This document shows positions 1-55,464 of a stretch of 64,000 bases of DNA, one piece after another. The notes under the pieces were generated by a model. It saw only the letters and a list, made by a program, of their open reading frames with translations. It did no database searches and was not told the DNA's origin. Each line of letters opens with the position of its first letter. Position 1 is the first letter of the stretch. A program made the translations under genes and the position numbers. The stretch is from Alentia gelatinosa (Eukaryota > Annelida > Polychaeta > Phyllodocida > Polynoidae). The stretch spans positions 44,080,028-44,144,027 of the forward strand of contig OX465580.1 of NCBI GenBank assembly GCA_950022655.1, written 5' to 3'.

Positions 1-576
1 ATCTTATCTGCCACCGGGCCAGTTGCATGACATCCATCTGTCAGTCGGTATAGCGTATGAGTATGGACCTGTGTAGAGCATCTATACCTGTGTAGGGCAT
101 GGTGGATCCGAGGAGTGAAGAGATTCAACCTGTCATTTATTCTACCGAGTTCAGCAGAGAGGTCCAGACATCTATCAATAATTTCCTGCTGCTGCCGGGT
201 GTAGATTCTGTTCCCCTTGTTCCACGGTAACATCCATCGCGTAGCAGGTGGTGAAGATTATCTTCGTATTAGGAGACAAGTTACTTACGTCCCTATGTAT
301 GGCCAGACAGAGTTGGGTTACCCTCTCAAGAAATACCTGGGATGATTCTCGACGGAGAGACACCAGACCTGTGTGCCTACACTTCATCGTGGTTTCTGTG
401 ATCCCACACGATATATACACTACATCCATGTCGGTAAGAACCCCAGGTTTATGCAGGTAGTTCCAGATTCTATCAAATCCCGCTCCTTTCAGTGAAACAC
501 AAACGAAGTTCTGGAACATACGAGTATCATTACGCAAATAATTAACCCTCGAATCTCCAATGAACAGACGAACCAT
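1..576 (-). pseudogene. SGNH/GDSL-type hydrolase-like ORF, frameshifted and truncated by window edge
   Basis: The ORF opens at ATG 576-574, 28 bases after the NADAR stop. Its N-terminus is MVRLFIGDSRVNYL, giving the GDS nucleophile block. A second conserved strand reads DVVYISCG, where SGNH families usually carry an N-containing block III, so that block looks altered. The open frame stops at 175. A neighbouring frame continues towards the left edge and carries LTDGCHATG, matching the D-x-x-H block V that supplies the catalytic Asp and His. A frameshift near 190-230 therefore probably splits one hydrolase. In CR1 ORF1 and some Ngaro elements such domains are thought to act on lipid or ester substrates; here activity is unlikely unless the shift is an assembly error. 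Confidence 0.5.
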
Positions 577-604
577 GGTCCTTACCGTTATTACGATTGT
601 ATTA

Positions 605-1450
605 TTATTTCACTGGGACAGCTGATTTCAAGTGTGCCCGCACCCTTTCAAGAATACGACCTGTGTGATTCTCTCCTCTGTAACCCACATTGTCATAATT
701 AGGGTCATTGTACTTGGTGCCCCCACCCCAGAACGGGTCCAGGGTGGCCTCTACCAACTTACTAGGGTATGTGGCCAACAGACGGTCAGACAAAGCTTTA
801 TTTTGTACGAATTTTGCTGAGATGATCGATTCTAGTATGGATATTTTGATACTATCCCAACCATTTGACTTGATTTGTTTACTCAAGTGTTTGATATACT
901 TTGGTGAGCTGCTGTTCAGGACATGGTCTCCCATGTCAATGTCTCCAGCTAGTCCCGCTTTAGTATAAACAAAGGCTTGTTCGACGCTGTTGAATGTGTG
1001 GGTTTGTATGACTTCATAAATTTCTTCCTCGTTTTCGTTGTAGGTTTTCCAAGGTATTGATAGTCTCAGATCGGTAGGGAAAAAGTTACTTAAGAAGGAA
1101 GTTGCGCCGGCAAACAGAATCGATCCCATCTTAGATTTGCGAGTACCCTCCCCGTCCGGCACTCTGCACACAATCGCTAGTGGTTGCGCCTCGTTGACTC
1201 CTGTGATTACGTCACCCACTTGAGTGGTTGTTGATTGCCTTTCCGGCTCAGTAGTTCCCTGAGCACCAGTGTTGACCGGGACATCATCTATAGCATTTTC
1301 CGAGGTGCCGTCTCTATCCTTTTCTTTGGGAGGTGTTGCCACTTTAGGTTGGTCTTTAGCCAAGGCCTTTGTTATGTCAGAGATTATGGATTTCCTTATG
1401 TCGGGGTTAGACAAGGACGGGGGACGTGTTTCTCTAGAGTTCGGAGCCAT
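605..1450 (-). CDS. NADAR (YbiA-like) domain protein inside a retroelement-like cassette
   Basis: A 281-codon ORF from ATG 1450-1448 to TAA 607-605. Residues 1-105 are low-complexity (Ser/Thr/Lys/Asp-rich). Residues about 111-275 form a NADAR domain (DUF1768, the YbiA/N-glycosidase fold). They show SNFFP near 121, the glutamate-bearing SVEQAFVYTKA near 155, an ILESIISAKFVQN helix, the LVEATLDPFWGGG block near 232, and a terminal NHTGRILERVRAHL. The family acts on NAD/ADP-ribose-related or N-glycosidic substrates; the substrate here is unknown. The frame stays open upstream of the ATG to 1606 and encodes IGGRIYNFSDLNEIPVG, resembling the tail of LINE ORF1 RNA-binding domains. The protein may therefore normally be fused to the upstream segment. 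The domain itself has no internal stop. Confidence 0.75.
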   Translation of the reverse strand: MAPNSRETRPPSLSNPDIRKSIISDITKALAKDQPKVATPPKEKDRDGTSENAIDDVPVNTGAQGTTEPERQSTTTQVGDVITGVNEAQPLAIVCRVPDGEGTRKSKMGSILFAGATSFLSNFFPTDLRLSIPWKTYNENEEEIYEVIQTHTFNSVEQAFVYTKAGLAGDIDMGDHVLNSSSPKYIKHLSKQIKSNGWDSIKISILESIISAKFVQNKALSDRLLATYPSKLVEATLDPFWGGGTKYNDPNYDNVGYRGENHTGRILERVRAHLKSAVPVK

Positions 1451-1560
1451 TTGTCTTAGATTTTGTTCTGGGTCCCAATCAGGGGGAAAACATCCGACTG
1501 GTATCTCGTTTAGGTCCGAGAAGTTATAGATTCGGCCACCAATTTTAACTCCCTCTGGAA

Positions 1561-1974
1561 CTAGTTCTGCATTCCCTCCAATTCGCCTTTGGTAACCGTA
1601 ATCATTTTATATATGCCACGAGTCCGCCTCACGTTCCATGGCTCGTCCGGCTTGACAGAGACATTCCAACCTTGGGACGCACCAGTTACACGATATGAAT
1701 TTGAAAGGAAGCGTTCACATGCTGCAAGATTCGTAAAGGACACTAGGATAGGCTTAGGTCTGCCCATTTGGTCTTGAGCTTGGTTGTTTCTACCTACTAT
1801 CCTTGTGATATTCAAAACATCATCTGGCTTAAAATATAGGCCAGTTTCACTCACCAACTGATGAAAAATCATCTTCAAGTCCTCATGTGGAGAAAAAGGA
1901 ACAGCAGAGATAAGTTCAAAAACCCACTCAAAGATATGAATCTGGAAGAAGTCTTGGGAGGCCTGTTGGGATGT
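1561..1974 (-). pseudogene. LINE ORF1-like RNA-binding segment upstream of NADAR
   Basis: An open minus-strand frame runs from just after the stop at 1977-1975 to TAG at 1563-1561. It contains EDLKMIFHQLVSETG, a VLNITRIVGR strand, then RPKPILVSFTNLAACERFL and DEPWNVRRTRGIYKMI. The order (helix, I-x-R-x-G strand, RP-I-V-F strand, basic tail) resembles ORF1p of L1/CR1-type LINEs (transposase_22/RRM-like). The continuation typical of that tail appears in the next frame between 1606 and 1451. One frameshift in 1561-1606 would join this segment to the NADAR ORF. No convincing start codon is visible. Similarity is by motif only. Confidence 0.45.
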
Positions 1975-2859
1975 CTATCTTTTTCGGTCTGCCACAAGAC
2001 TGTCTTGTTTTGTCACTACAATCTCGCTTTCTCACTATGTATTAGATGACTTGTAGACCTAGTTTCACCTATATATGTTCGTCCTTTTTAACAGTAATCG
2101 TTATTACTGTCTCAGTGTATTCTGTAACATATTTTGTGTCTATTGTACCCATATATATGTATTTGTACTGTATTTGTCTATAGAGAATACAGATTGACGT
2201 CTGTTTAGCAACCATTACACCTCTGGTAGACGTCCTTTTTACGTTCGTTGGTGCACGAGAAAAGTTTTCAACATGTTGAAAACTTTCACCGGATGAGTAA
2301 CGGATGCGCGTCCGTAACTCATCCGTAACTTTTCAGTAACTCTTCCATTCTCTTTTGTTCGTATACGTTTCTCTTCCGTTATACATCCACAACTCATCCG
2401 TAACTTTTTTGTCGCCTACAGACACATTGCAGATGTCTACGGATGTCTACAGAAGTGTTGCGGATGTGTTACAGATGTGCATCAGATATCTTGCGGATGT
2501 CTTGAGCAGGCCAATGGATGTCTACAGAAATAAACAGAAATATTACGGTTTGGTTGCAGATGTATTTCTGGGTAAACATTTGTGTTTCAGTTGTGTTACG
2601 GTTGTGTTACGGATACATTACAGACCGATATCTGACTATATACAGGTGAATTTCTATAGATCCTCATTCTGCTTCTGGATACCATACGGTCAACATCTAC
2701 CTGGCCGCCTACATCATGGAAGAAAAGACTATAACAGGTTCAAGCTTCTGCTGCAGTATTGCAAGCTGGTCTGAAGGTTGTTCAAGCTGGCATTGACTAT
2801 ATCAAACTTGTGAAGAAGAGGAAAAAGAAATGATATCGCAAATCCTAGTCAAAGGCCTG

Positions 2860-3991
2860 GCTTGGTCTTGAGAGAAGACAGCAATTTGATCTATACGACC
2901 AGTTGGTGAAGGAGCTACGATTGGAAGACAGCCCTTCCTTCATGAGGATGCCGCCTGCTATGTTTGATGAAATTGAGAGATGTGTGTGGCCTCGTATCAC
3001 CAAGAAACCACCTCCTTCAGGACACCACTAGAACCAGGGATGAAAGTGGCCATTACACCCCAACACCTCACATCTGGGGCCAAGTGTTCTGATATGGGGT
3101 ATGGTTGGTGTGTTCCCCACAACACCATCTCCATCTTTGTGTGAGAGGTAATTATATTCATCTAATATTACACATACATTTTGTTATTTGTTCATATTGT
3201 TTGAATTGTAATATTATTACATTCAACACTTTTTACATATTATCATGTTCACCACATTTTCTATTTACCAATTGATGAATGCCATATATATAACAATGTT
3301 GACTCTAATAATAATTTTTTCCTGTAACTAAATCTTCTTTCCTATCTTTTTCTTTACAGGTGTGCCAAGCCATCGTAGATGAATTTATTGGTGAATTGAT
3401 GCCTGCGCAAACTATTCAGGAGTTCTGGTCCAACATCGCAGATGGCTTCTACAAAAGATGGAACCTGCTGCACATTCTTGGTGCTTTGGATGGAAAGCAC
3501 ATCTCTGCAAATGTCCACCATCGTCAGGTTCTACATACTTCATTTACAAGAAGTTCTTCTGCGCACTTGTCGACTCTGAGTACAAGTTCATCTGGGCGGA
3601 CATAGGTGGGAGTGGTGCAGCATCCAATGCACAGATTTGGAATGACTCTGACCTGAAAATGTCCATCGACTTTGGTGAAATGCAGCTGCCCGACCCAGAT
3701 CCACTGCCAAACGACACAGAGGATGAACTGTACTTCATTGTCGTGGATGAGACCTTTGGTCTAAGGAGTTATCTGCAGAAGCCGTTCAGCTTGAGAGGTC
3801 TTGATCATGAAGAACGGATATTCAACTATCATCTATCCTGGGCCCGTCGTGTGGTTGAAAATGCCTTTGGTATTCTCGCCAACAGGTTCCAGATGCTTAT
3901 GTCAACCATGGAGCATCACCCAGCAACCATCCGTTTCATCGTCACCACCTACATGGTTCTTCACAATCTCCTGCAGACACGTCACCCCTGA
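2860..3991 (+). pseudogene. PIF/Harbinger DDE transposase (broken)
   Basis: Exon 1 (to about 3147) encodes QFDLYDQLVKELRLEDSPSF and PRITKKP, then shifts frame into MKVAITPQHL and GWCVPHNTISIFV, both typical of Harbinger transposases. An intron at 3148-3359 has a GTAATT donor and a pyrimidine-rich TTTACAG acceptor. Exon 2 continues with VCQAIVDEFIGELMPAQTI, then GALDGKH (first catalytic Asp). After a frameshift near 3505-3515 come CPPSSGSTYF, YKFIWADIGGSGAASNAQIW, VVDETFGLRSYLQKPF (second Asp), RARRVVENAFGILANRF-like sequence with the catalytic Glu, and a stop after TRHP at 3991. At least two frameshifts make the copy inactive. Confidence 0.85.
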
Positions 3992-12322: not shown

Positions 12323-15300
12323 CTAGCCATACTGGTTGTCCATTGTGTTCAGTCCCCATGGGGATTGACTCTTAAGGCGGTGGATCCAGTTGAACTCTAT
12401 CTTGTTCCTCAGGGTCCCCGCCCTTTCGCTCTTTGGGTGACGATAGATGAAGTCCAACACATGGAATTCAACATCTTCCACCCCATTGTGGTCACTTTGG
12501 TTAAAGTGAATGGGCACCTCATTCAGAGTTGCATTTTTTGAGATGTTACGGAGGTGTTCGTACATCCGTTCTCTCAATTTCCTTTTGGTTTGTCCCACAT
12601 ACTGTTTGCCGCATTTCTTGCAGTTGATGCAGTATATTATATTGGAACTGTTGCAGGTTACGTTCCATTTGGTGTCATGCCTACGATTTGTCGTGCCGGA
12701 GGTCAACTTTCCCCCTGTGCTGATCTTAGGACAGTACCTGCAATTTTTCCTATTGCATGTATTTCTGTTCAGGACTTTGTTTTTGTCCTGTTTTTTATCG
12801 CCCTTTTCAGGGTGATATTCCAGCTTTGCTGTGACAAGGTGATCTTTGAGATTTTTCGGTCTCCGATATCCCTTGATAAGTCTACTGCTGTAGATCTTTT
12901 TTGTGGTCATGGACCTCCCCAGGAGGTCCCAGTTTTTTGATACCACTTCCCCCAGTTTGTTGTTCCCTGGGCGATAGGTTGATATCAGGTAGGTGCGATC
13001 TTCGCCACCCTCTGCTGTTCTGGTTTTCTTACCAGCAAGCAGGTCATCCCTGGGTGTGTCGTCTACCTTTTGTTTACTCTCTAGGAGAATTTTTTGTGGA
13101 TAACCTTTGTCTTGGAACTCAGACATCTTGGTTTCCGCATGTCTTTCGTAGTCCTCACATCTCCCGCAGATTCTCTTTATTCTGAGGAGTTGTGAATACG
13201 GTAGGCTACGTTTTGTTGCGGGTGGGTGCGCAGAGTCGTACCTTAGGTACGTATTCGCGTCAGTGGGTTTGCTGAACAGGTCTGTGTACAGCTTCCCTTG
13301 GTCTACTTTCACCTTGGTGTCGAGGAAGGATACTTCTTCCCTCGAGTATTCGTTGGTGAATTTTATCGAGTGATGTGCCGTGTTCATATGGTGTACCCAC
13401 TTTTTGAGTTCATCCTCACCATGGTCCCATATGTAGAAGATGTCATCTATGTATCTCCACCAAACCCTTGGCATGAGATGATGAGATGACAGTATGGTGT
13501 CCTCTATAAATTCCATATACAGGTTTGCGTATGAGGGGGCCAGTCTAGTCCCCATGGCTGTTCCTCTCTTCTGGAGGTAATGTGTGCCATTGAAAACCAT
13601 GTTGTTTTTAGTTAGTACCATCTCCAGGAGGTCTACTAATGAGGCATTGGTTGGTTTTGCTGTCGCTAATCTGCGAAGTTTCAACTTTTCAGCTATAACC
13701 TGTATGCCTTCGGTATTTGGAATGTTGGTGTATAGTGAACTCACGTCTAGAGTCCCTATGATTGTGTTGTCATTGATTGTTCCCACTTTCTCGATTTTAT
13801 TTACAAAATCGTTGGTGTCTTTGACATATGAACTTATGTCTGGCACCAGTGGTTTTAAGAAGTTATCCACAAACGCGGATATCTTCTCCGTTGCGCAACC
13901 ATTTGCCGACACTACCGGTCTCCCCGGTGGCGGGCGTTCCTTTTTGTGAATCTTGGGTAGAAAATAGATATTAGGGGCCTTGACCTTCCTGGTCTTAAGA
14001 GCCCCTGCCATTCTATTTCCTATTTCACCACTGTCTTTCATCTCTTCTATCTTTTTCTCTATCTCACTGTATAGAGAGTTCGTGGGGTCACTATCTAGTT
14101 TTTCGTATGTTAGTGGATCCCCGAGTTGCCTGTCCGCCTCCGCAATATATTGTGCGGTGTCTTGTATTACAGTAGCTCCACCTTTGTCAGCCGGTTTGAT
14201 GACTATACTGTCATCTTTTCTGAGACGTTTGAGTGCGTCCCTTTCACAAGGCATGACATTTTGTTTGGGGCGTTTAATCGTTTTCTCGGGTTTGGAGAGA
14301 TTTATCTCATTGATAGAGATGAAACTTTCCAAGTTTTGGGAGCCCAATGGGGGCTTCCAACCCGATTTTTCCTTCAGACTACGAATTACTTTCTCGTTTT
14401 CATAGGATAGATTAGTGCCCTGTGTATTCTCTGCAGACGGCCCTATACTGGGTCTTTTTTTCGAGAAGAATTGTTTCGTTCTTAATTTCTGATGGAATTC
14501 GTCTAATTCTACTTTAAGATCTCCTTCATTTGAGCTTTGCTGTACCGGACAGAAGTTTAAACCCTTTTCTAAGATTGATACTTCATCTTTCGTTAGGATT
14601 TTTTCAGACAGATTTACCAAGATTGGATTTTTGGATTTTATCGTTTGGTCACTATTGGTATGTTTATCCTTACTGGAAAATTTACCATCTTTTTTGCAAT
14701 GATCAACTAGAACACCTGTGTATGAACACGTTCTGGCTTTATTGGACTGATCACATGTATCAACAACGGTTACATGGTTACCTGAGATAGTACCGAAATT
14801 GGTGTCTTTGGCCCCAATATGGGCTACTCCAACGGGAGTGGTAGATGTGACACCGAGTGTTTCCGGAATCTTAGGACAGTCCCTCACTCTGGCTTTGGAG
14901 GAGGTTGTTCGCCTCTCCCCCTCCCCTTTCCTCTGCCTCTGCCCCCTCTCTTGTAGGAGCCACGGCTTGGCCTGTCGTCGGGGGCGGTTCGCACCTCCTT
15001 GTCTCCCCCGGCCTCCCCGTGTTTGAGCTGGAGGATCCGCAGGAAAACCCGGTTTCCCTACGGCTGCACTCGCTGGCTTGTTGGCCTTCTGCTGTTTCAC
15101 AGCTGCGGTTGCTGGGTCCCTGAATTCATGGGCACCCGGCATACATTGTGGCAGCTGATCTTTTTTCGCCTGGAGTTGCTCCGTCTCCTGCGTCTCCTCG
15201 TGGCGAAGAGCCTTCTTGTTGTGGGCACGTATTTTACCCATAATCGATATTGACTCTTGTGCACTGTTCTGGTCATCCACCAGTTGTTGCACTGTATGAT

Positions 15301-16906
15301 AGTAGGCGTTACTGGCCTTTAGCTGGGCGTGGTGGGCGTGGTAGAAGTAGTTCATGGTGGCAGTCATTATATCACTAGCTGCCTTACGACAAATCGACTC
15401 TACCTCGTTCATCACTGTGGTACTGGCGATGTACTGAGGAGGTTCTGTAACCCCTACAGCCCATGGTTCGGTATGCCCCTCCTCGATGGCACTTTCGTAC
15501 CATTGAGCCCCCAGTAGGGACTTCACCGGTTTGTTGTCCTCATTCTTGGCCTGTCTCCACGGTCCTCGTGCTTCCTCCGGGACCATCGAATCTATGCTCT
15601 GCAAGAGATTAGAACAAGAGTTACTTTCATGTCCCAATCTTTTATTGACAGTGAAGGGATTTGGTTTTGTTATGTTACGTTTGATTTCGTCTACTTGCAT
15701 AACTTTATTTGTCATCTGTCTCGTTTGGTGAGAAACGTGTGTGTTCACCGTGTAGTTATCAGCAAAGTTTGGAATGGAATTCACTTTCTGGCAAATTTCA
15801 TTGTTACTCAGAACGGTACACGTTTTTCTCTTCTTAGGGGTGTAGTTAGACTCTATCTCTGTGTCTAAGTCCTCTAAGAGTGTTAATACCTTATCTGTTG
15901 TAACCTCAATCTGATCGGTATTACGTTTCCTCTTACTCGTTGTGTTTAACGGGGTAAGTGGTGTAGGCGGTATTTCGCCTTGGGCTGGTGAGCGTGTGTC
16001 TATGTCTTTGACCATTCTCTCCCTACCCTGTCTCGCCCCTGGTTGGTTTGCTTCAGTTTGTTCCAAACTGTCGCCCTGTACCTCCAGTGGTGGCGTGATC
16101 TTTTTAGAAGTCGATTCACCAACGGGAGTGCGTGCCGGTTTTGCAAGGCATGCTCCCCTGACTCCATCAAGTACGCAAGAAGTGTGTGTATTGCTAGCGT
16201 CAGTGTGTTCAACTTGCGGTGCGATCGGTAATTTACTTGTACCAAGATCAGCAGCTAAACAACGACAAGGCCCGGCCACCTGGCTGGTGCGTATGTCGCT
16301 GTGATAGTGCGTAGAACCTTTTCTGTCTGCCGTCTGGTCAGGCGTGTCAGGTTCTGAGGGTGTAGTAGAAACTAGGTCAGAGTTGTTAACCACATCTCTA
16401 ACGTTATGCTCGCGGTCAGTGACCGCGGGCTTTTCAGTGTAAATCAGTTTAGTGGAGTTACTTTTCTCTCCACGGACCTGCATTTTAACTGGCTTGTTAA
16501 AGTAATACAATATAGACCTCTGGTTGGAGGCCCGTACAGTGTTAGCTTTAGCGAGTGGAATGACGTTGCTTACCTGTTCGACGCGTTCACTCTCTGTTCT
16601 GACAGCCGGCACCACCCCGGTCGCTCTACGGGAGAACTGGTTGATGCGCTGTCCATTTCGATTGTTTGCGGCTGCCGCTCTCCCGCGGTCGGCCTCAGTG
16701 ACAAGTCTCGGGTCTTCGCGTACCATGTTGCCGGGGTTCGCGACGACTTTCTCCGCTGGCGGGTTAAGGGCGACCGTACTGTCGTCTTTAACCGCGGCGG
16801 ACTGAGCGGTGGTGTCCATCTCAGTAGACTCACCGTCTTTCTCTTGCAACAGCATGGCAGACCACGCTTGACCTGCCGATGCTGCTGCGGGTTTCTCGTT
16901 GGACAT
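12323..16906 (-). CDS. Penelope-like polyprotein: long N-terminal region, reverse transcriptase, GIY-YIG endonuclease
   Basis: A 1527-codon intact ORF from ATG 16906-16904. Residues 1 to about 760 are low-complexity, with Lys/Arg patches, a predicted helical stretch (about 540-585) and an Arg/Gly-rich segment (630-665); I recognise no domain. The PLE RT begins near 890 with IVIKPADKGGATVI. It continues with FLPKIHKKERPPPGRPVVS (982), the LDVSSLYTNIP Asp block (1053), KRGTAMGTRLAPSYANLYM (1113) and the YIDD active site (1152-1155). A Cys-rich linker follows (TCNRKNCRYCPK, 1383). The GIY-YIG nuclease lies at about 1423-1515, with IYCINCKKCGKQYVGQT carrying the PLE-type cysteines inside the motif, then the Arg helix RKLRERMYEH and the catalytic Glu in NKIEFNWI. 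Typical Penelope proteins are much shorter, so the N-terminal half is unusual. The protein is predicted to nick target DNA and copy its RNA in the nucleus. Confidence 0.92.
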   Translation of the reverse strand: MSNEKPAAASAGQAWSAMLLQEKDGESTEMDTTAQSAAVKDDSTVALNPPAEKVVANPGNMVREDPRLVTEADRGRAAAANNRNGQRINQFSRRATGVVPAVRTESERVEQVSNVIPLAKANTVRASNQRSILYYFNKPVKMQVRGEKSNSTKLIYTEKPAVTDREHNVRDVVNNSDLVSTTPSEPDTPDQTADRKGSTHYHSDIRTSQVAGPCRCLAADLGTSKLPIAPQVEHTDASNTHTSCVLDGVRGACLAKPARTPVGESTSKKITPPLEVQGDSLEQTEANQPGARQGRERMVKDIDTRSPAQGEIPPTPLTPLNTTSKRKRNTDQIEVTTDKVLTLLEDLDTEIESNYTPKKRKTCTVLSNNEICQKVNSIPNFADNYTVNTHVSHQTRQMTNKVMQVDEIKRNITKPNPFTVNKRLGHESNSCSNLLQSIDSMVPEEARGPWRQAKNEDNKPVKSLLGAQWYESAIEEGHTEPWAVGVTEPPQYIASTTVMNEVESICRKAASDIMTATMNYFYHAHHAQLKASNAYYHTVQQLVDDQNSAQESISIMGKIRAHNKKALRHEETQETEQLQAKKDQLPQCMPGAHEFRDPATAAVKQQKANKPASAAVGKPGFPADPPAQTRGGRGRQGGANRPRRQAKPWLLQERGQRQRKGEGERRTTSSKARVRDCPKIPETLGVTSTTPVGVAHIGAKDTNFGTISGNHVTVVDTCDQSNKARTCSYTGVLVDHCKKDGKFSSKDKHTNSDQTIKSKNPILVNLSEKILTKDEVSILEKGLNFCPVQQSSNEGDLKVELDEFHQKLRTKQFFSKKRPSIGPSAENTQGTNLSYENEKVIRSLKEKSGWKPPLGSQNLESFISINEINLSKPEKTIKRPKQNVMPCERDALKRLRKDDSIVIKPADKGGATVIQDTAQYIAEADRQLGDPLTYEKLDSDPTNSLYSEIEKKIEEMKDSGEIGNRMAGALKTRKVKAPNIYFLPKIHKKERPPPGRPVVSANGCATEKISAFVDNFLKPLVPDISSYVKDTNDFVNKIEKVGTINDNTIIGTLDVSSLYTNIPNTEGIQVIAEKLKLRRLATAKPTNASLVDLLEMVLTKNNMVFNGTHYLQKRGTAMGTRLAPSYANLYMEFIEDTILSSHHLMPRVWWRYIDDIFYIWDHGEDELKKWVHHMNTAHHSIKFTNEYSREEVSFLDTKVKVDQGKLYTDLFSKPTDANTYLRYDSAHPPATKRSLPYSQLLRIKRICGRCEDYERHAETKMSEFQDKGYPQKILLESKQKVDDTPRDDLLAGKKTRTAEGGEDRTYLISTYRPGNNKLGEVVSKNWDLLGRSMTTKKIYSSRLIKGYRRPKNLKDHLVTAKLEYHPEKGDKKQDKNKVLNRNTCNRKNCRYCPKISTGGKLTSGTTNRRHDTKWNVTCNSSNIIYCINCKKCGKQYVGQTKRKLRERMYEHLRNISKNATLNEVPIHFNQSDHNGVEDVEFHVLDFIYRHPKSERAGTLRNKIEFNWIHRLKSQSPWGLNTMDNQYG

Positions 16907-16915
16907 ACCGGTATC

Positions 16916-17975: not shown

Positions 17976-19000
17976 ATGAGGAATACGCATCACGAGTTAG
18001 GAGGAGAGAACAACATGGGTCCAGCAAACACCCGTAGTAACCCCGTCGCTGGGCCGTCTCAAGGACCAGGTGCAGAGGGCAGCTCGGAAGGTACGGTCAC
18101 GGACTCGAGGCAAACGAGCCGGTCTCCGACAACGGCTCGACCGTTAAGTCCTCGAGGATGACCGCGCTGGAGACGAAAGTAGACACCATGCTCGAGGCTA
18201 TCAACAGGATGTCCCGACAACGATCGTCATCCCGGGCGTCGAGGCCGCTGACGGAACCAACCGCCGTAGAGGCCCGCACCAGGGAATGGGCGAACAAGCA
18301 GACCGCACGACTCCCTCCACCCAGACAGCTGCGGGAGCGTTTCTCCCCAAAGGACTTTCTTCAAAGAGAACTCGACCGTGAGGCTCTGCGCCATGATAGA
18401 ACGGCTGGTAAGTTGGCCTCAGATTTGACCACTTCACGTTTAATTTCAAAGCCGTTTATGTTTGTGGACCGTGAGGGGATATATACCCTCAGTCAGAAAC
18501 TCGAGGTCAGGGGTACGCTGGGCCCCCTCGAGTACATCAGTGCATTCCTGGCCCTCATGGAGGATGACCGTGCTACACACGAGGAGGACCGTAGAGACAT
18601 GTATCGCCACCTCCACCAGGTCTCGGTGGACGCGCAGTCACGGCCGTGGGCCGGCATCCGCCATTGGTCGAACTACATTTTTGACCAGGTGGAGGCAGGA
18701 CACATCTATTGGTCGGATCATGTGAGAATCCAGGATGAACGGGTTCGTCTGGCCATGACCCCTACGGGTGAGAACAGTATCGGACAGGACGGAGACAAGT
18801 CCGGCGGGCACGAGCTGCCATGCCGGGCTTATAACTCGGAGAGGGGGTGCCGCCAGCGCAACGGCCACCAGGAGCGTGTAACCGCAAGCTGTCATATGGG
18901 CTAGGGTACGACAGTACTCTGCAAACACCGACACCCGCACCACGCCGGACACCACACGCCGGACACTCGGTTCGCACCGCCGACATCAAAGCGCTACCAC
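17976..19000 (+). pseudogene. Gag-like protein of DIRS-type copy 1
   Basis: ATG 17976 opens a Ser/Gly-rich N-terminus (GPANTRSNPVAGPSQGPGAE). A frameshift near 18110-18150 moves to the main frame from 18158, which encodes a short helical segment (ALETKVDTMLEAINRM) and then the core shared with copy 2: LISKPFMFVDREGIYTLSQK, GPLEYISAFLALMED, LHQVSVDAQSRPWAGIRHWS and WSDHVRIQDERVRLAM. The zinc-finger region starts (CRAYNSERGCRQRNGH), but a deletion jumps to ACNRK in another frame. The main frame ends at 18904. Inactive. Confidence 0.75.
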
Positions 19001-19224
19001 AACAGGGTTAAAAAAACGGACCGGACGCGCCCCGCGAGTGAGCGAGGCGCGTCGCTCGCCCCCCACGCCCAGTACACACGCACCGTAGCAGAGGGGGGGC
19101 TCAACGGTCAACGGGTGCATAGGTGATGACGCAACACCCCACGTGTCAACAACACCTCCTGCCGGACACGTGGGGAGCACACAGGACAATAACAACACGC
19201 CCACTGAATCCACTAGCGTGCCTC

Positions 19225-20623
19225 CAGCGACCGGCGTGTCATTACGGACATGACATACCCAAAGGAGGATAGTGTGAACGGCTACATTATCAAGAATTCT
19301 GTCTAAGGGCAGGAGCATGACCACTGCCTCCCGACCGTCGACAGCTTCGTCGGCCGCCTGGTGACCTCCGGGCCAGATAGCTATATGTCCACGATAGATA
19401 TCGCGAGGGCATATAAGAATTTCAGGTGCGACCCCCTAGACTGGCCGTTGCTGTGCTTTGCGTGGGAGGACGGGTACTTCTGTGATACGGCCATGCCGTT
19501 TGGTGCCCGAGCCTCCTCGTACCACATGCAGTGCGTGGCAGACTGCATCGTCGGTATCCTCAGCCAGAAGGGGGTCGATGCCTGCATGTACCTCGACGAC
19601 CTGATCATCCTGTCTCCCACACGGGAAAAGGCGGCCGTCGACTTTGGCATCGCCCGTGATCTTTTCAACGAACTCGGCCTCCCGGAGGCACGGGATAAGG
19701 CACAGACCCCGGCACCGGTCGTCACCTGGCTGGGTATTGTGATCAACGCTCCACACGTGAGGGCAGTAGCAAAGAAGCGGTCCCTCACAAAACGGCAACT
19801 CCAGGTGGTCCTTGGCAAGATACTCCATGTATCGAAGTGCATACGGCCGGCCCGGCCGTTCGTCAGTAAGTTGCTCGAGGTTCTCCGGAGGATGACTGGT
19901 TTCTACGTCAACATCAACGCCGAGATGCGGCAAGATCTACAATGGTTCCTCCGCTTCGCTGACGGCTGGAACGGGCACGCCCTCATCCCTCGAGGTCCAC
20001 CGACGAAGTGTCTCATCGTCGACGCGTGCCTCTCGGGCGTCGGGGGTACAGATGGGAGGTACTCATACTCCGGACAGGTGTGCCTTGTCAACGACCCCGT
20101 GAACTGTATCGCCGAGCTCGAGGCACTCAACACCATATTCGTGATGAACACCTTTCTCACTGACCGGGATCGAGGCACGCGGGTGGAGGTCTTCTGCGAC
20201 AACCTGGGCACCGTCCAGGCACTCACATCTGGCCATGCTAGGAATTCGGTCCTCGCCGAATGTGCCCGGCAAGCCTGGATGGTGCAGGCTAAGTTGCAGA
20301 TCGACTTTCTCTACACACACGTACCGGGGGCACTCAACACCGTGGCGGATGCCCTCAGCCGTGCCCACCTGACCTCGAGGGACTATGACAAAGTGGCAAT
20401 GTTCATGAAATTCCATTCCCTCACTGAAATTATGCCTTGTACACACGCGGCATTTATTCCTGTCCTCCGTCTCACATGCAGATCCGGCACTACGATGTCT
20501 CCAGACGAGGGCATCTGCTCGGCAATCAGAAGCACGTGCCCCCGGAACGGTCGCGAACCAGAGGAGCGCCGTCGCGACCTACCTCGCGTTCTGCCGGAGG
20601 ATGGGCGCCGACCCCCACTGTGA
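19225..20623 (+). pseudogene. Reverse transcriptase-RNase H of DIRS-type copy 1 (5'-truncated)
   Basis: Homology starts at DRRVITDMTYPKEDSVNGYI (19228). An in-frame TAA at 19304-19306 precedes a long open frame. RT motifs are STIDIARAYKNFRCDPLDW, GYFCDTAMPFGARASSYHMQ and the YLDD active site (MYLDDLIILSP). RNase H follows with the four acidic positions in LIVDACLSG, AELEALN, EVFCDNLGT and NTVADALSR. The polymerase N-terminal region present in copy 2 (about 53820-54300) is absent, so a deletion joins the Gag tail to mid-polymerase. Confidence 0.85.
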
Positions 20624-21419
20624 GCTTTACCACGGCGTACCTCGAATACGTCGGGGACGACGCCCCCTCACCAGCAACGGTCGCGAACCACCTCTCGCAC
20701 GTGCGGGGGGCGTCGCACCCACGGAGCACTTTCGGATCAAGCGTGCTCTCGAGGCGATGCGGCGAAACAAGATGTATCAGCCCAATATAAAGCCGCCAGT
20801 GCCGTTGGGTGCCATCCGGGCCGTCCTCGCGGCCCTAACAGATTCCCCAATTCACCTCGCTCTACGGGCCGCCATTCTGATCATTTACTACGCGGCACTG
20901 AGACAAAGCGAGGTGGCCCCTCCAACGGTCTCGAAGTATGATGCGGCACGACACCTGTCGCGCTGGGATGTGGTGGTCTGCCGTCGACGCGTGACCGTCC
21001 GTATCAAAGCCGCCAAGAACATGCAGCACGTAGGGGAGGAGAAAACGGTCACGCTGCAGGAGTCACCCGATCCGCGGTTCTGCCCGGTACGTGTGATACG
21101 CCAGATGTTATTGGCGTCCCCTACGGCCAACCTCGGAGACCCGTTCCTCCAGCACGTACACGGGGCGACCGTTACGACCAGAACCTTGACGAAAGAGTGG
21201 AAAGCCATCCTACAAGCCGTTGACCAGCTGCCTACCTTTACGCTGCATGGCCTTCGCAAGGCCGCAGCTACGCAGGCATACCAGGCCGGTATGCCAGAAC
21301 TCTCCATCCAGAGGTATGGCAGCTGGAAGTCAAACGCCCATAGGGCCTACATAAAGAACAATGACGCCCACACAGTTAACCGTGCATTGGTCCTTTCCCT
21401 ACTCAACAAAAACTCTTAA
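20535..21419 (+). pseudogene. Tyrosine recombinase of DIRS-type copy 1
   Basis: The N-terminal SAM-like part (NQRSAVATYLAFCRRMG, then TAYLEYVGDDAPSPATVANH) is spread over frames by short indels. From 20729 the catalytic part is intact to the stop at 21419: RAAILIIYYAALRQSE with the first Arg, FTLHGLRKAAATQAYQAGMP with His-x-x-Arg, and IQRYGSWKSNAHRAYIKN with the Trp/His position and the Tyr nucleophile. The enzyme would integrate a circular DNA copy without target duplication. The N-terminal frameshifts probably inactivate this copy. Confidence 0.85.
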
Positions 21420-35965: not shown

Positions 35966-36229
35966 TTACAATAAGATAACATTGCAGAGAAAATAAAAAT
36001 GGGAATTTAAATTGTTTTGGAATTAAATTTCCATAATATTCATTAATATTTGTGTTGGCTAAAATTGAATTCTGCCTCCGTGTACATTACTAAGGGGAGT
36101 GAAATAGCACCTAAGCACTGGTTTACAATTATATTTTTAGTTATGGTTATAAAACAAATACCCCTGTACCATGTCTAAGATATAATTGATCAGAAATATG
36201 TGCAGTAAGAGCAACATGGAATTAATTCA

Positions 36230-36670
36230 TATGGCTAAAATGTGCTTCTTCCTCCATGTACACACATAATTATCAATGTTTCAATAAGACCTTCTAATAT
36301 AGTTTGAAAAAGATATAGTATGAGTAGAATATGGCCAAATTTGTCCATGTGAGAAATTGAATTAAGATCCCCCCCATACATTTTGGAGTTATCACTGGTA
36401 AATAATGTACACAGAGGCACAGTGTCGGTGTTGATGTGGAGGGTATTGGGGTAGGTGGCATGAAAACGGCTATCATGTGTTTTTGCCATTGTGTACACAT
36501 ATTTTATCAAGATCTGCTAATATGATTTGAAAAAAAAAAAAATATATGAGTAGGATGGGACCACATCTGTCCATGTGTGAAATTGAAGCAAAACCTCCCC
36601 ACACACTATGGAGTTATACTGCTAAATTTTGTACATGTAGGCAGATTCTGCCTCTGTGTACACACTTCTG
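36230..36670 (-). repeat. Tandem sub-repeats in left arm of the giant palindrome
   Basis: Two diverged units bounded by TTCTGCCTCCGTGTAC-type words, each with a TTTCAAA...ACTCATA-like inner segment. They correspond to the units at 43745-44645. Confidence 0.55.
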
Positions 36671-37834
36671 CCTCCATGTACATAGGTTTATCTCTTTTCA
36701 TAGCATAAATGGGTCTGTAGCATGAAAAGGAGTCTTGAGGCATCATGGGGCATCGTATCTGATAAATATAATTATGGAAACAAAATTTTGTTATAAAAAA
36801 TTATAGAGAATAAAGAAATAACATATTGCTAGAAAGTGTCATTTTTAGTTTAAAATTCCTATGAAATGGTATATAAAACCATTCCAAATAAATTGCACAC
36901 ATAATTCCTAATATCACCTGGCAGAACTAATGTATTAATCACCATACATGAAAGGGAACAGCTCAAGTTAAAGGATTCTTTTCTGCCTCCGTGTACACTT
37001 CTGCCTCCGAGTATGTTTCAATATTTCACAGCTCTCAGGTGAATGGTACCAGATTCTTGAAATTAACCACATTTTTTGGGAACATGTTTATCAACATGTG
37101 CATATTTTTTTCATATTTTGTATGGCACTTGAAATAAATTGCAGTATTCATAGAAAAACTCCCAACTCCGGGAAAGAATTTCTTTCATATAATTGGTCAC
37201 TGCTGAGCTAGGGACAGAGAAGATGACGAGGCAAGCTTGGGAATAAATAATTTATTATTATTATAAAATGATAAATGATTGATTAAATAAATAAAATGAA
37301 TTAATACATAATTAATACATTGTTTGTATAATGTGATAATAGTTGAATGTGATAATAAATAGTAGATGGGATATAAGAGTTGATTGAATTAATACATTGA
37401 GTGTATGGTAAGTATAAAATATAAATTAAGTTGAAATACAACGAGTATTTATAATAGTGAGTTAATAACATGAATATTTGTATAAAATATGATGATGTTA
37501 ATACATGTAATATTTGTAAAATATATATACCGGCCTACGAATGTAGGAGTATTGATAAAATAGGTTGTGGGTGGGTGGGAAATGAAAACGATGTGTAAGG
37601 TGAGAGAGTTGGTGAAGGAATGGGGCGCAGGCGAGGCCTGTGCCCCAGATGAGGTGTGAGGTGAGAGTGGTGTGAGATCTGTCCACCAGACGTCAGCAGT
37701 GAGCGGTCCCACCAAACCGGTGGGACCATACCACTGCTGAGCTAGGGACAGAGAAGATGACGAGGCAAGCTTGGGAATAAATAATTTATTATTATTATAA
37801 AATGATAAATGATTGATTAAATAGATAAAATGAA

Positions 37835-39949
37835 TTAATACATAATTAATACATTGTTTGTATAATGTGATAATAGTTGAATGTGATAATAAATAGTAGA
37901 TGAGATATAAGAGTTGATTGAATTAATACATTGAGTGTATGGTAAGTATAAAACATAAATTGAGTTGAAATACAACGAGTATTTATAATAGACCTCGGCG
38001 CTAATGTTAATGTACCTCTTTTTGGGGCCTCGAAGTGTCTCTAGCAGCCTCGAGATAAAAAGACGGGTTGGGCGGATGCATTTAGAAACGTGTACCAATT
38101 TACCCACCAGCGACTCCATTTCCTTTCTGGTGACCGACCGTCGTTTGAGGAAGGCGGCGACCGTTTGGCGTATTTCGTCGAGTTTCTGTTGAGGTACTGA
38201 TAGGGTCTTGTCCTCTGCGTTGATCGTGATGCCGAGCCAGGTGAGGCTCCTGGCCAGACCCTGTCTCTTCTTGGGGGCCTCGGGAAGCCCTACTTCTTCC
38301 AGGAGCCTGGTAACCTCGGCTGCATCCCGTTCCGACTGTACCCTGGAGGGAGATAAAACAATGATGTCATCCAGGTACATCCAAACCTTGAGGCCTCTGC
38401 CCCGGAGTGTCGCGACTATGGCATCGGCGACCCGCTGCATGTGGCAGCTCGAGCATCGGGCTCCGAATACCATACTCGCCTCCAGGTAGAATTTCCCCCC
38501 CCACTCGAGGCATTGAAGGGGCCAGTGGAGGGGGTCGGCCTTGAAATTTTTGTAAGCGCGCCTGACGTCGGTCGAGAATAGGTGAACGTCCTCGCCCATC
38601 CTGACCAAGTCGTCCACTATTGAATCGATTGAAGGTAGGCCGTGATTCTGAATATTCCCGAATAGAGAGTTCTTTATGACATATGCATTAACTGACTTGT
38701 AATAGGGGAAGGTGAGGTCTGAGATGACGCGTTGCTCCTCCGAGTCCCGCTTGGGCCTGGACATTAGGGGGGCGACGTGGCACCAGGGGGCGAAGGGGGC
38801 GTGGTCGTAGGGACCGACCAGCCCACCTAGTCCCAGTTCTTTAGTGATGAATGAGTCTATGGCCTTAGGGAAATCAGTGGCGCTAGCATGGTTTGGCGTA
38901 CCCATGCTATCGCTCACCGGCCCCATATAACCCAGGGGGAATCCATGCGCTATTAGGTCGTAGAGTTCTGGGTCCACCCCCTCGACGCATAGTATTATTT
39001 TCCAAGCAGTGAGGTTGAGACCAGTGGGGAGTGCTACCTTACTACTGACGCTATTAGGGAGCCCAGTCGACCGAACAATGTCATAGATGCGTGACAGCTC
39101 GACTGACTCGGTCGAGGCCGCGGACACAGACATGTTCGGCCAATATTTTTCCCTGTGTGGCTGAAAAGCATGTGGACACATATCGATATCATGCTCAACA
39201 ATGTTATTTTCACAAATGAGACGTATGGCCGCAAAGTCGGGGTCGTTACCTGTTGTCCTTTGGCGTTGCTCGAGGGCCACGCCCCCTTCCTTGTTGATTG
39301 AGCTCAAGCCGGTGCGTGCTTTTTCAGTGCTGACGCACTCCGCCCTCCAGTTCGGTGCTTCCGCAGAGTATTCTCTGGAGTGGCGAACTTGTCTCTCACA
39401 TTCCCCTCCATTATAACGCCTGGCCAGCACTACATACTTCATGGGCTTCGAATCGAGCAGACCGGAAGTTCCGCCATCTTGGATGCGCTGCAGCTGGTTC
39501 CTAGCGTCACGCGGCGCATGTGTCTGGCTGGTGCCCGTTCCAGTTGTCCATAGGGCGCCGCCATCTTGTTTTCGCTCTCCACGCGTATCCTTGGTCTCAC
39601 CCGCATGCCAGCATAGGCCCCGCTGGTTGAGTGTAGTGCGTTCCGCTGTCGCTCTCCTTCCCGATGTTTCGCACCCTTCCCGTGTCGGCTGTGTAGCAGC
39701 AGGCGTCCCTGACAACGGCTTGCCAGAGACGCCTACTGGCTGTTTTTGAGGCCGTACGGCCGTGTTGCTCCCCTTGCCTTCTGTCACGGTCAAGTCTGTT
39801 GCAGATGGACATGTTATGGCCGTTGTAAAAGTTCCCCGTTCGCCTGTACCAATACGAACAGGCGTGAACGCATGTGGTGCCTGCTTCCTCGTGATCGCCC
39901 CGGTAGCTACAACCCTTGCTGGCGTTGAAGTCTCTACACGCAACTTCAC
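37835..39949 (-). pseudogene. Reverse transcriptase of DIRS-type unit B (RNase H and recombinase deleted)
   Basis: A 704-codon open frame overlapping the Gag zinc-finger frame by about 350 bases in another phase. The first 300 residues are low-complexity. The polymerase part shows IYDIVRSTGLPNSVSSKVAL, LIAHGFPLGYMG, FAPWCHVAPLMSRPKRDSEE, RVISDLTFPYYKSVNAYVI, FSTDVRRAYKNFKADPLHW, MVFGARCSSCHMQRVADAIV and the YLDD active site (VWMYLDDIIVLSP). It then reads LVGKLVHVSKCIRPTRLFIS and YINISAEV. After that the frame runs into the AT-rich 3' terminal region, so RNase H and the recombinase have been removed by one internal deletion. Compared with copies 1 and 2 it is a clearly different subfamily. Confidence 0.85.
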
Positions 39950-41170
39950 GACCGCGTTGGCCGGTCCTTGAGTTCGTGTTGTTTGTCGCGCCTCTGGATT
40001 GCACGACAGGTGCGTGCCGTGCCGACTGCTGTAGTGCCGGGGCCCGGTCCATTAGACACAGCCGCACCCTCTCATGCTGTATTACATGCCAGTCTGACCA
40101 CGAGATCTTGCCTTTCTAGACTTGGTCAAAAATATGCCGTGAAAACCTTCTCACCGAGGGCCATGGTCGTACCATAGCGTCATCTACGACGCCTTGTAGA
40201 TGCTCGAGTAGGTGGGGGTTGTTGTATAGGGGACAGAGCCATTGTTAGTTCATGAAGCAGTCACTAGGTGGTCGGGGGACAAAACCTGCATTCTGGCTCT
40301 TTGTTCTTACAAAATTCCGCTGCCTCTCAGTGTTTTACCAAGGTTCCTTTGACTCTCTACACCGATCCCAGAGCAGGAAGATATAATGCTAAAACCCAGG
40401 ACATGGTGTTTTTCACATGGAACACTTTATTTACATATGTGAGCAAGGCAAGAAAAGTGACATTTCCCAATTATCACTCACTTCTTTTGCACCTCCATTA
40501 GTGAAGAACAGCTACTTTTTCACCTCCTTTAGTGAAGAACACCTACTTGGGGGGCGTCATGGCGGCGCCCATGGATCATAGGCTATATGCCGTATAGGTC
40601 CGAGCGTCGGTCATCCCTGATGAGACAAATCAGGGCCCGTATGTATTCCAGCATAGTGATGTCCTTGCGGGCCTCCAATTTGTGTTTCAGACTATCCACC
40701 CCCTCCCGGTCCAGGTACATGAAGGGTTTTGGAATATAGCAGTCGACAAATATATCGGAAGACAATGCGACCTTACCTTCGGACCGTAGGGGGCACATGT
40801 ATTCTTTCGCAAAATTCACTCTAGAGGTAGCCGTCGTAGTCTTGTTGGCGTCGGAGTTCACGTGGGGGAGGCATATGCTGATCCGCAGTATGTTGCCGGT
40901 GTCTGCTCATGGCCTTGAGCAGGAGGTCCATTTTTCGGTCGAGACCACGGACATCCTCCTCCAGGCGATCCACATGGACGCTCGACCGAGAGCTACATGT
41001 GCTCGCCTCGTCCACGGTTTCATAACCTGACCGGCCGTATTTGAAGCTTACTTCGTGCTCTGGCTCGCTTTGGGCCTCAGTGGCGTCGCTCCGGTCCTCT
41101 GATTCTTCCCTATCTCTTTCCCTCCTCTCATTTCTCTCGTTTCTCGTCTTTCCTCTTGTTTTGGGGGCCA
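39597..41170 (-). pseudogene. Gag-like protein of DIRS-type unit B, interrupted
   Basis: ATG near 41170 opens MAPKTRGKTRNERNERRERD, then a helical segment (VHVDRLEEDVRGLDRKMDLL), a frameshift near 40830, and the conserved core IPKPFMYLDREGVDSLKHKL and MLEYIRALICLIRD to 40583. About 370 unrelated bases (40215-40580) interrupt it. Core homology then resumes (HLQGVVDDAMVRPW, SRHIFDQV, an in-frame TAG, GKISWSDWHVIQHERVRL). It ends with a zinc-finger block (VACRDFNASKGCSYRGDHEE, TTCVHACSYWY, SICNR) and a stop at 39597. Confidence 0.7.
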
Positions 41171-42694: not shown

Positions 42695-43744
42695 CTAAAG
42701 TAGAGTTTTATTTGTCCAGACTATTAGCCATTTTAGGGACACTACTATTGAACTGCCTAGATTGTATGGAAAAACTCCTGAAAGGATCCGAGAAATTTTC
42801 TTTTCTTACCATCTTTGAGTGAATTGTCACCAAATTCTGAATATCGATCATGCATATATATATATATATGGTCGAGATTCAGAATTTGGCGATAATTCAG
42901 TCCAAGATCGTAAAAAAATAAAATTCATAGGATCCTTTTAGGAGTTTTTCCGTGCAATCGAGGCAGTTTTTTTTATTGTATCCGTAAAATGGCTAATGGT
43001 TTGGACTTATATTGGGTTCAGTATGCCATATTGAAGTAATAGTCTCTTTAATATTTCTGCCTCCATGTACATAGGAATATCAATTTAAAACTCTATTTTA
43101 GGCTTTTTTAAAATGAAAATGATAGAGTTTCTTTGTTTGTTATACATGAAGAACATGTTCATCTAGGAGAAAAAAGTGAAAAAGATTCCCTACCTATTAT
43201 GATTAAATATTGATTACCAAATGTATGAAGGATAATTTTTTCCCAGAGCTTGCCGCTTTCCCATGAATACTGCATTTTTTTAAATTACCATTAAAAGTCT
43301 GAAAAAATATGTACATGTTGATAAACATGTCCCCAACAAATATGGTTAATTTTAAGAATCTGGTACTATTTAGCTGAGAGCTATAAAATATTGAAACGTT
43401 GTACATGGAGGCAGAAGTGCACACGGAGGCAGAAAAAAAGTCTTATAACTTGGCCTGTTCCCTTCCTATATAATGATTTATTCATTATTTCTGCAGGAAA
43501 TATCAGGAATTATGTGTGTGGTTTATTTGGAATGGTTTTATTTATCATTTCAAAGCAAATTGAAACTGAAGATGACACTTTCTAGCAAGTTGTCCATTTC
43601 TTTTTTTCTCCTTGTTTTTTGACCCCCAAAAATATTTTTTTCCATAGATTTATTTATCATATTCGATGCTTCTGTAGTGCTCCATGATGTCTCAGGTCTC
43701 CCTTTCATTCTACAGACCCATTTATGCTATGAAAAATGATAAAA

Positions 43745-44645
43745 ACCGATGTACATGGAGGCAGATGTGAACACGGAGGCAGAATCTGCTTCTGTGGAAA
43801 TTATTTACCATTACAATTCCATAGTGTGTGGGAGGATATTAATTCAATTTCACACATGGACATATGTGGTCCTATCCTACTCATGGTACATCTCTTTCAA
43901 AATATATCAGCAGATTTTATGGAAATATTGATAAATATATGTGTACACGGAGGCAGAAGCATATTTTAGCCATTTTCATGCAACTAACACCAATCCCCAT
44001 CCCCATCAACACCCACACCCATCAACCAACACCCACAGCAACACCTACCAACATTAAGACCAATAGCAGGCTGAGTTTGGGTTTGAAAACAGAGGTAAAC
44101 CTATGTACACGGAGGCAGAAGTATGTACACGGAGGCAGATTCTGCATCAGTGTACATGATTTTCCAGTGTAGTGGTTGCAGCTATTTCAATGCAATTTCA
44201 CACATAGACAGATCATGGTCATGCCCTACTCATATAATATTTCTTTCAAATTATATTAGAAGATCTTAGGGAAATATTGATAATTACATCTGTACACGGA
44301 GGCAGAAGCATATCTTAGCCATTTTCATGCCACCAACACAAATTCCCACAAATACCAACACCCACCAACACCCACACCTATCAACCAACACCCGAAGCAA
44401 CTCCGATTTTTGGTTTGAAAATAGAGATAAACCTCTGTACACCGAGGCAGAAGTGTGTATTCTACCTCCATGTACATTATTTACCAGTGATAACTCTGAA
44501 GTGTGTGGGGGGATTTTAATTTAATTTCTCACATGGACAAATGTGGTTATATTCTACTCATACTATATCTTTTTCAAACTGTATTAGGAGGTCTTATTGA
44601 AATATCAATAATTATGTGTGTACACGGAGGGAGAAGCACATTTTA
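43745..44645 (+). repeat. Three tandem units of about 300-360 bp in right arm
   Basis: Each unit starts and ends with GTACACGGAGGCAGAA-type words. Each contains AATTTCACACATGGACA and a GGAAATATTGATAAT-like segment. CA-rich spacers follow the first two. Confidence 0.65.
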
Positions 44646-45156
44646 GCCATATCAATTAATTCCATGCTGCTCCTACTACACATATTTCTGATCAATTATA
44701 TTTTAGGCATGGCACAGAGGTATTTTTTCTATATTTTATAACTACAAAAAATAGATCATAAACCAGTGTTTTGGTGCTATTTCACTCCCCTTTGTAATGT
44801 ACACAGAGGTAGAATTCAATTTTTAGCCAACACAAATATCAATGAAAATTAGGGACATTTCTTGGCAAAACCATTTAAATTCCCATTCTTATTTTCTCTG
44901 CAATGTTATCTTATTGTAAAATTAGTTCAGTGATAAAATTGAGTTGTTTTTTGTAAAGTGTAGACAATTATTCAATAAACATATACTCTGATACCCAATG
45001 TTTAGACATACTATAGTTCTATTGTTACTACCAGACGGCAGATGGATTTAGCTAGGATAGAAAAATGGGATTCTTGGTGTATGAAAGCCCCCTTTAACAG
45101 TATCACATACATTCATAATTTACCTATTTTTCAGGTGGCGGAGCGGCTTGCCTATC

Positions 45157-54930: not shown

Positions 54931-55464
54931 GTCGCAAACCAGCGAAGCGCCGTATCGACATACCTCGCGTTCTGCCGGAGGATGGGGACGGACCCTCAGG
55001 CACCGTCCGTGAGTTTCGTAACGGCTTACCTGGAGTACGTCGCCGACCACGCCCCCTCACCAGCGACCGTGGCGAATCATCTCTCCCACCTACGGTCGCA
55101 CCTACAGCTCTCCGGTGGAAACGTCGCGGTGACCGAGGACGTACGGGTGAGGAGGGCCCTCGACGCCATGAGGAGGGACAAGACGTACCAGCCGAATATC
55201 AAGCCGAGGACAGGACGCCGATAACGACCCGGTCGTTAACTAAACAGTGGAATAGGCTACTCGCCCAGGCCGGCCACCCCCCAAAGACATACACCCTTCA
55301 CAGCCTGAGAAAGGCCGCCACCACACAGGCCTTCCAGGCCGGGGTGCCAGAACTGTCCATTCAACGGTACGGGGGGTGGCGCTCCAACGCGAACAGGAGC
55401 TACATCCTGGACGCGAATGCCACTGAGGTCAACAAATCACTTATAAAATCCCTCAACAAGTGAC
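54931..55464 (+). pseudogene. Tyrosine recombinase of DIRS-type copy 2 (internally deleted)
   Basis: The N-terminal part is intact in one frame (VANQRSAVSTYLAFCRRMG, SFVTAYLEYVADHAPSPATV, RRALDAMRRDKTYQPNIKP). At 55213-55226 a deletion removes the segment with the first catalytic Arg and shifts the frame. The C-terminal part resumes as TTRSLTKQWNRLLAQAGHPP, YTLHSLRKAATTQAFQAGVP (His-x-x-Arg) and IQRYGGWRSNANRSYIL (Tyr), ending at TGA 55462-55464. Inactive. Confidence 0.82.

Follow-up and report, generated by a model that had tools for sequence, protein, structure and literature searches.

On the minus strand of positions 1–1975 of the window, by which we mean the whole analysed stretch of 64,000 nucleotides, an L1-type ORF1 RNA-binding segment is followed by a NADAR domain and then by a frame starting with the motif GDS. 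With a probability of roughly 80%, we regard this arrangement as a 5′-truncated, frameshifted copy of a non-LTR retrotransposon, whose L1/Tx1-type ORF1 carries a NADAR domain that would act in cis on ADP-ribosylated nucleic acid. Three segments on one strand had already been described at this place in a sequence-only reading of the DNA, and all three were recovered.

Locus layout and similarity to ORF1

The following features were assigned (positions in the window, strand, content, and basis of the assignment in brackets), given in the direction of reading:

1975..2340, minus strand, region upstream of the preserved ORF1, with a probable 5′ truncation close to 1975 (translation, tblastn)
1561..1974, minus strand, ORF1 5′ part as preserved, LINE-1-type RRM segment, 137 codons (BLASTP, hhalign, tblastn)
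605..1606, minus strand, ORF1 C-terminal tail, linker and NADAR, 333 codons open (frame, Pfam, alignment)
1493..1543, minus strand, ORF1 CTD tail IGGRIYNFSDLNEIPVG, aligned to ISIDGRLYSTQTLNEIP of the related protein P0001 (9/17 identical, E 0.01 alone)
626..1096, minus strand, NADAR domain PF08719 with Glu209, Lys216 and Glu286 at catalytic positions (Pfam, NCBIfam, PDB)
3..576, minus strand, candidate SGNH/GDS hydrolase frame, which leaves the window (motif layout)

The segments 1561–1974 and 605–1606 overlap by 46 bases and are in different frames; therefore, ORF1 is frameshifted in the window copy. The third open stretch covers 175–609 and is resumed in another frame at 3–257, up to the edge of the window. 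Its frames show the window copy to be dead: ORF1 is broken between 1561 and 1606, and a second break lies near 225 in the third frame. The ORF1-type tail at 1493–1543 is in frame with the NADAR domain, as had been described; the first segment (1561–1974) is out of frame with the second. The distance of 28 bases between the NADAR stop codon (605–607) and the GDS start (first ATG at 576) was borne out.

In BLASTP, the first segment (1561–1974) matched the RRM region of the related proteins P0001 and P0002 (E 3e-6 each; 30% and 24% identity), in both of them ahead of the NADAR domain, and hhalign aligned it to the family profile A3 with a probability of 86% (E 5.2e-6, 99 columns). Also, the relatives P0038, P0047 and P0050 matched the RRM segment of the window by tblastn (E 9e-5, 5e-5, and 7e-4, respectively), two of the matches reaching 1914. 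The tail IGGRIYNFSDLNEIP matches P0001 ahead of the NADAR domain of this protein, weakly when taken alone (E 0.01). Since the RRM segment and the tail both match ahead of the NADAR domain of the relatives, the window keeps the order RRM segment, CTD tail, NADAR. Of the features of an L1/Tx1-type ORF1, the RRM and the CTD tail are thus found in the window copy by homology, and no coiled coil was seen by eye.

Upstream of the preserved part, no coiled-coil-like frame was recognized in the three-frame translation of 1975–3000, which was inspected by eye and not with a predictor, and tblastn with 65 family and related proteins (E limit 1e-3) gave no ORF1-family similarity beyond 1914. Therefore, a 5′ truncation close to 1975 is probable. 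At the other end, the element runs off the first base of the window, so that ORF2 with the reverse transcriptase (RT), which is expected to the left of base 1, is out of view; for the window copy, neither an RT or endonuclease nor a poly(A) tail or target-site duplication was visible. Within the 64-kb window no second copy of the element was found, one 21-base match being obtained at E 0.12.

The neighbourhood in the window is crowded with transposons. A rhodopsin-type GPCR and a GT10 fucosyltransferase are also encoded in the window, and suggest that the host is an animal.

The NADAR domain and its relatives

In Pfam, residues 171–327 of the second frame (window 626–1096) matched PF08719 with E 2.5e-26 (93.3 bits vs a cut-off of 35.1), covering profile positions 12–163 of 163; a match well outside what chance would produce. 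The NCBIfam model TIGR02464 (riboflavin-intermediate N-glycosidase) was matched above its cut-off as well (E 8.9e-25; 87.7 bits vs 73.7), while the match to the NCBIfam anti-phage NADAR model (E 3.4e-9) was far below the cut-off (36 bits vs 240). Among PDB sequences, the domain matched E. coli YbiA (2b3w, E 2.1e-6), and the Phytophthora NADAR (8bau) with an E-value of only 0.063. In an E. coli NADAR, Glu88 and Lys95 are reported as catalytic and largely conserved across the superfamily, together with a further conserved Glu (PMC11543638); Glu at this further site is described as a hallmark of the YbiA family (PMC11125620). According to our own mapping via the 8bau alignment and the text of PMC11543638, E209, K216, and E286 of the 605–1606 frame are the catalytic Glu, the Lys, and the YbiA-type Glu, and the triad of the window copy is intact. 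In the alignment of 65 proteins, the expected residue was present at the three active-site positions in 56/58, 55/58, and 55/57 ungapped rows. The full Glu-Lys-Glu triad is intact in 45 of the 51 family NADARs and also in P0003, and the remaining six (P0027, P0031, P0032, P0038, P0041, and P0044) have one change each. With its fold and catalytic residues in place, the NADAR domain of the relatives' ORF1p is probably an active ADP-ribosyl glycohydrolase. A tblastn search of the NADAR frame against phages gave 353 records, every one with less than 60% identity. NADAR alone is common, and so the domain by itself is no evidence for a retroelement.

A search of the NADAR frame against 5.8 billion proteins gave four matches, P0001–P0004. 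P0001–P0003 have 416–503 residues with the NADAR domain located towards the C-terminus, and P0004 is a bacterial NADAR (Simkaniaceae) by the naming of its source. By a profile search, 63 proteins were obtained, of which 57 lie on contigs of more than 300 kb. The relatives are spread over many long contigs and some of them apparently share one, as their contigs are equal in length (P0051, P0052, and P0057; P0030 and P0036; P0001 and P0034), which is a pattern as of repeats. For the family counts, 59 of the 65 proteins were used and P0003, P0004, and P0061–P0064 were set aside. P0003 was not returned by the profile search, yet it has RRM/CTD, NADAR, and the triad; in P0062 and P0063, 0.80 of the RRM columns are occupied, but P0062 looks unrelated by eye. 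When the presence of a domain was called by a 60% coverage rule, RRM/CTD plus NADAR were found in 41 of the 59 family proteins, NADAR only in 10, RRM only in five, and neither in three. The suggestion that a retrotransposon carries the NADAR enzyme was thereby strengthened in part, namely by an L1-type ORF1 with a C-terminal NADAR in 41 of 59 relatives across many contigs.

The RRM/CTD part was not recognized by Pfam alone, and in a search of profile A3 against PDB sequences NADAR came first, followed mostly by coiled-coil stretches, with L1 ORF1p absent among the best 60 of 127 matches. The likeness to L1 ORF1p was detected by fold comparison only. A model of P0001, calculated from a 29-row alignment, had a mean pLDDT of 82 and a pTM of 0.40, so the domains are reliable, but their mutual arrangement is not. 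With limits read by eye, it comprises a helix (2–111), an RRM (~162–248), a CTD (to ~302), and a NADAR domain (~332–498). The top PDB matches of this model in Foldseek were the NADAR 8bau (5.1e-10), YbiA (6.9e-8), and the human LINE-1 ORF1p trimer 2yko (4.2e-5). The architecture of the relatives' ORF1p, as modelled, is coiled coil, RRM, CTD, and NADAR.

Human LINE-1 ORF1p stops after the CTD and is not known to have a NADAR domain. Its RRM and CTD (2yko/2ykp) are common to P0001 by fold, and P0001 also has a long N-terminal helix. By fold match the coiled coil/RRM/CTD part of the relatives is homologous to L1 ORF1p, and by analogy to L1, for which this function is established, it is predicted to be a multimeric RNA-packaging protein.

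Scans of viral contigs with P0003, with the window RRM segment, and with the SGNH reading of the third frame (see below) gave no relatives. With profile A3, 285 stretches matched, of which 239 were confirmed and 80 kept; these 80 loci were treated as putative virus NADARs. In a scan of genome contigs with P0001, two contigs from bacterial bins were found, the NADAR part alone matching. A NADAR tree of 100 rows was calculated from the window, 57 of the 65 proteins (eight were too short), two bacterial sequences, and 40 of 79 viral ones (every second; one of the 80 viral loci yielded no row), using a quick method and a midpoint root. In this tree, the window NADAR is located on the side of the LINE family, P0003, and P0004, apart from the 40 virus rows (SH-aLRT 99), and outside the 51-member family, with a best identity of 38% (to P0015). 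Its grouping with P0003 and P0004 (support 88) was not relied on, both being long branches. As P0004 is named bacterial, the LINE side of the tree does not consist of retroelements alone; together with the position of the window outside the 51-member family this means that capture of NADAR may have happened more than once. Either a single old capture or two captures may account for this.

The frame downstream of the NADAR domain

In SGNH hydrolases the conserved blocks follow each other in the order GDS, Gly, GxN, DxxH. When the third frame is joined across its break near 225 (spans 175–576 and 3–257), a reading of 191 residues is obtained with GDS at 7–9, Gly31 and Gly33, GIT at 58–60 instead of GxN, and DGCH at 180–183. 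The joined reading therefore has the SGNH-type GDS Ser, the block II Gly (Gly31), and DxxH, and lacks the block III Asn, the oxyanion Asn being replaced by Thr. In 200,000 shuffles, a stricter pattern of this layout occurred 0 times and a looser one 18 times, where both patterns were written after sight of the sequence and refer to the frame joined across the break. Against plasmids, the SGNH reading gave nothing at E 1.

There is a considerable chance that the GDS frame does not encode an SGNH hydrolase at all, and is either a stretch left open by chance or the beginning of ORF2 in a decayed state. This would agree with the searches of the third frame in Pfam, PHROGs, NCBIfam, PDB, and the protein collection, in which no SGNH match was found, with the very poor single-sequence model (pLDDT 37), for which Foldseek gave no match at E ≤0.001, and with Thr in place of the block III Asn. 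On the other hand, GDS, Gly, GxT, and DxxH stand in an order and at distances that fit SGNH (0 and 18 per 200,000 shuffles, with post hoc patterns and a joined frame). Furthermore, SGNH/GDSL domains or frames are described in CR1, RTEX, Penelope-like, and bdelloid LTR elements, also as separate ORFs (PMC3905857, PMC5408684), so that an SGNH frame would not be strange here. Guided by motif order and spacing, we lean slightly towards a putative SGNH hydrolase. The hydrolase proposed in the sequence-only reading has the motif spacing in its favour, but found no backing in profile, homologue, and fold searches and has the Asn-to-Thr change against it.

If the frame does encode such an accessory enzyme, it would share this with the ORF1 esterases of the ZfL2-1/CR1 type (PMC3905857) and the GDSL frames in ORF3 of bdelloid elements (PMC5408684), but these elements belong to other classes than that of the window, whose GDS frame is without profile support. 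ZfL2-1 keeps the Asn (N195) where the window frame has Thr, and its Asn-to-Asp spacing is 84 residues vs 120 in the window frame (PMC3905857).

Known NADAR elements and proposed role

The statement in the sequence-only reading that no well-described case was known does not hold. A YbiA-family NADAR is reported to be apparently present in ORF1 of several Tx1 LINE families of Crassostrea gigas, and one Gypsy lineage of the brown alga Ectocarpus also has a NADAR, in Pol (PMC12477816, Genome Biology 2025). Thus, the core of the finding is already in print. The oyster Tx1 LINEs have a LINE ORF1 with a YbiA-family NADAR as in the window element, a likeness drawn from the published description (PMC12477816); in the main text of this paper the term SGNH is absent. 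The Ectocarpus Gypsy is likewise a retroelement with a YbiA-type NADAR, but it is an LTR element with the domain in another protein (PMC12477816), and probably represents a separate capture. The NADAR antitoxins associated with DarT1 and E. coli YbiA have the same domain as the window and share with it the catalytic Glu and Lys and the YbiA-type Glu; they are bacterial and stand-alone or located in toxin operons, and the passages on them in PMC11543638 and PMC11125620 describe no fusion to an RNA-packaging protein. In the literature searched, which held few subscription journals and neither preprints nor Repbase, NADAR and Tx1 were found together in PMC12477816 only, and none of the papers listed described NADAR together with SGNH in a single element; for a LINE, this pairing would be new if confirmed. 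New here are the divergent ORF1-NADAR lineage, the modelled architecture of coiled coil, RRM, CTD, and NADAR, the counts of catalytic residues, and the candidate SGNH neighbour.

In L1-type elements, ORF1p is the protein that packages the RNA of the element. In the mechanism we propose, ORF1p would coat this RNA and accompany it to target-primed reverse transcription, and the C-terminal NADAR would travel with it to the site of reverse transcription. Host ADP-ribosyltransferases would add ADP-ribose to element RNA, cDNA, or target DNA, and the NADAR domain would strip it in cis from guanine bases or ends, so that the template stays copyable. The downstream GDS frame may be a second accessory enzyme, an SGNH esterase, between ORF1 and the unseen ORF2. 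An action in cis on template, cDNA, or target DNA is suggested because ORF1p travels with the RNA and because tested NADARs act on guanine-ADPr: the characterized enzymes remove ADP-ribose from guanine in DNA (PMC11543638, PMC11125620). For the NADAR in the oyster LINE ORF1, a role in RNA processing during transposition has been suggested (PMC12477816), and for NADARs of eukaryotic RNA viruses macromolecular host ADP-ribosylation was proposed as the target (PMC9503650).

The NADAR of ORF1p could instead act on soluble ADP-ribose derivatives or NAD-derived alarm signals and thereby blunt an NAD-based defence of the host, as has been argued for phage NADARs (PMC9503650). We consider this unlikely. 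Passing the TIGR02464 cut-off (E 8.9e-25) and the match to the anti-phage model (E 3.4e-9, although with 36 bits vs 240) are in its favour; against it, the fusion with an RNA-binding packaging protein favours nucleic acid in cis as the substrate, and the hydrolysis of guanine-ADPr in DNA by tested NADARs (PMC11543638, PMC11125620) as well as the macromolecular targets favoured for NADARs of eukaryotic RNA viruses (PMC9503650) point in the same direction. Very improbable is a host gene or domesticated ORF1-NADAR gene with no transposable element, since the openness of the 333-codon frame and the occurrence of NADARs in many animal groups (PMC11125620) are opposed by frameshifts in ORF1 and the next frame, an apparently truncated 5′ end, the transposon-crowded neighbourhood, and the distribution of the ORF1 family across many long contigs; a host gene was rejected because of the frameshifts and the many contigs that carry relatives. 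A phage-like NADAR insertion of the ordinary kind was rejected too, as the RRM and the CTD tail fit the ORF1 family.

For the retrotransposon copy with a NADAR domain on its ORF1p, a wider interpretation is tentative and on the whole doubtful, namely an animal LINE lineage having both a NADAR-ORF1p fusion and a separate SGNH esterase before ORF2, in addition to an ORF1-NADAR lineage at most 38% identical to the family. As the window lineage reaches 38% identity to the family at best, the association would be old or the result of a second capture. If a LINE with two such enzymes exists, its ribonucleoprotein would clean ADP-ribose off its own template and would, in addition, have lipids or acyl groups as substrates.

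The roles of eukaryotic NADARs are called unclear (PMC11125620). With the window element, the little-noticed class of retrotransposons with NADAR on an RNA-binding ORF1p gains a divergent lineage and a well-resolved architecture. With the active site kept in 45 of 51 relatives of a selfish element, this class would allow a direct test of whether ADP-ribosylation of retroelement RNA or cDNA serves animals as a defence.

A Penelope-like candidate

One long open frame is flanked by two pairs of direct repeats:

12323-16915, (-), open frame of 1530 codons without interruption, with RVT_1 and GIY-YIG domains
11633-11932/16924-17223, first direct-repeat pair
12015-12165/17305-17455, second direct-repeat pair, on the same flanks

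The element looks Penelope-like. Both repeat pairs are 98% identical, lie in direct orientation and show a spacing of 5.29 kb; together with its repeats, the element looks recent in age and possibly still intact.

DIRS-like copies

Three further elements are DIRS-like, listed here with the inverted-repeat arms around one of them:

18041-21419, (+), RVT_1 and tyrosine recombinase (Phage_integrase)
52440-55463, (+), resembling the former at the nucleotide level
37835-40115, (-), RVT_1
35966-37110 and 43302-44919, arms of long inverted repeats

The domain scan covered the first and third copies, while the second was placed by its resemblance to the first (78-86% alike over stretches of 71-300 bases). 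The third is enclosed by the inverted-repeat arms, pieces of which are 80-90% complementary.

Other fragments, NADAR proteins and host-like genes

3395-3991, (+), DDE_Tnp_4 transposase fragment (E 6.3e-18), PIF/Harbinger-type
63465-63998, (+), reverse transcriptase start running off the right window end (RVT_1, E 1e-15)
45085-46542, (+), host-like GT10 fucosyltransferase, single open frame
56315-57457, (-), host-like rhodopsin-type GPCR, single open frame

The reverse transcriptase was ruled out as ORF2 of the NADAR copy, the LINE-type remnant at the left window end, because it lies far away on the opposite strand. Among the NADAR proteins retrieved from databases, P0062 and P0064 are built otherwise than the LINE ORF1 family (coiled coil, RRM, CTD and NADAR) and appear lysine- and asparagine-rich by eye; P0063, whose NADAR sequence equals that of P0062, is counted with them.
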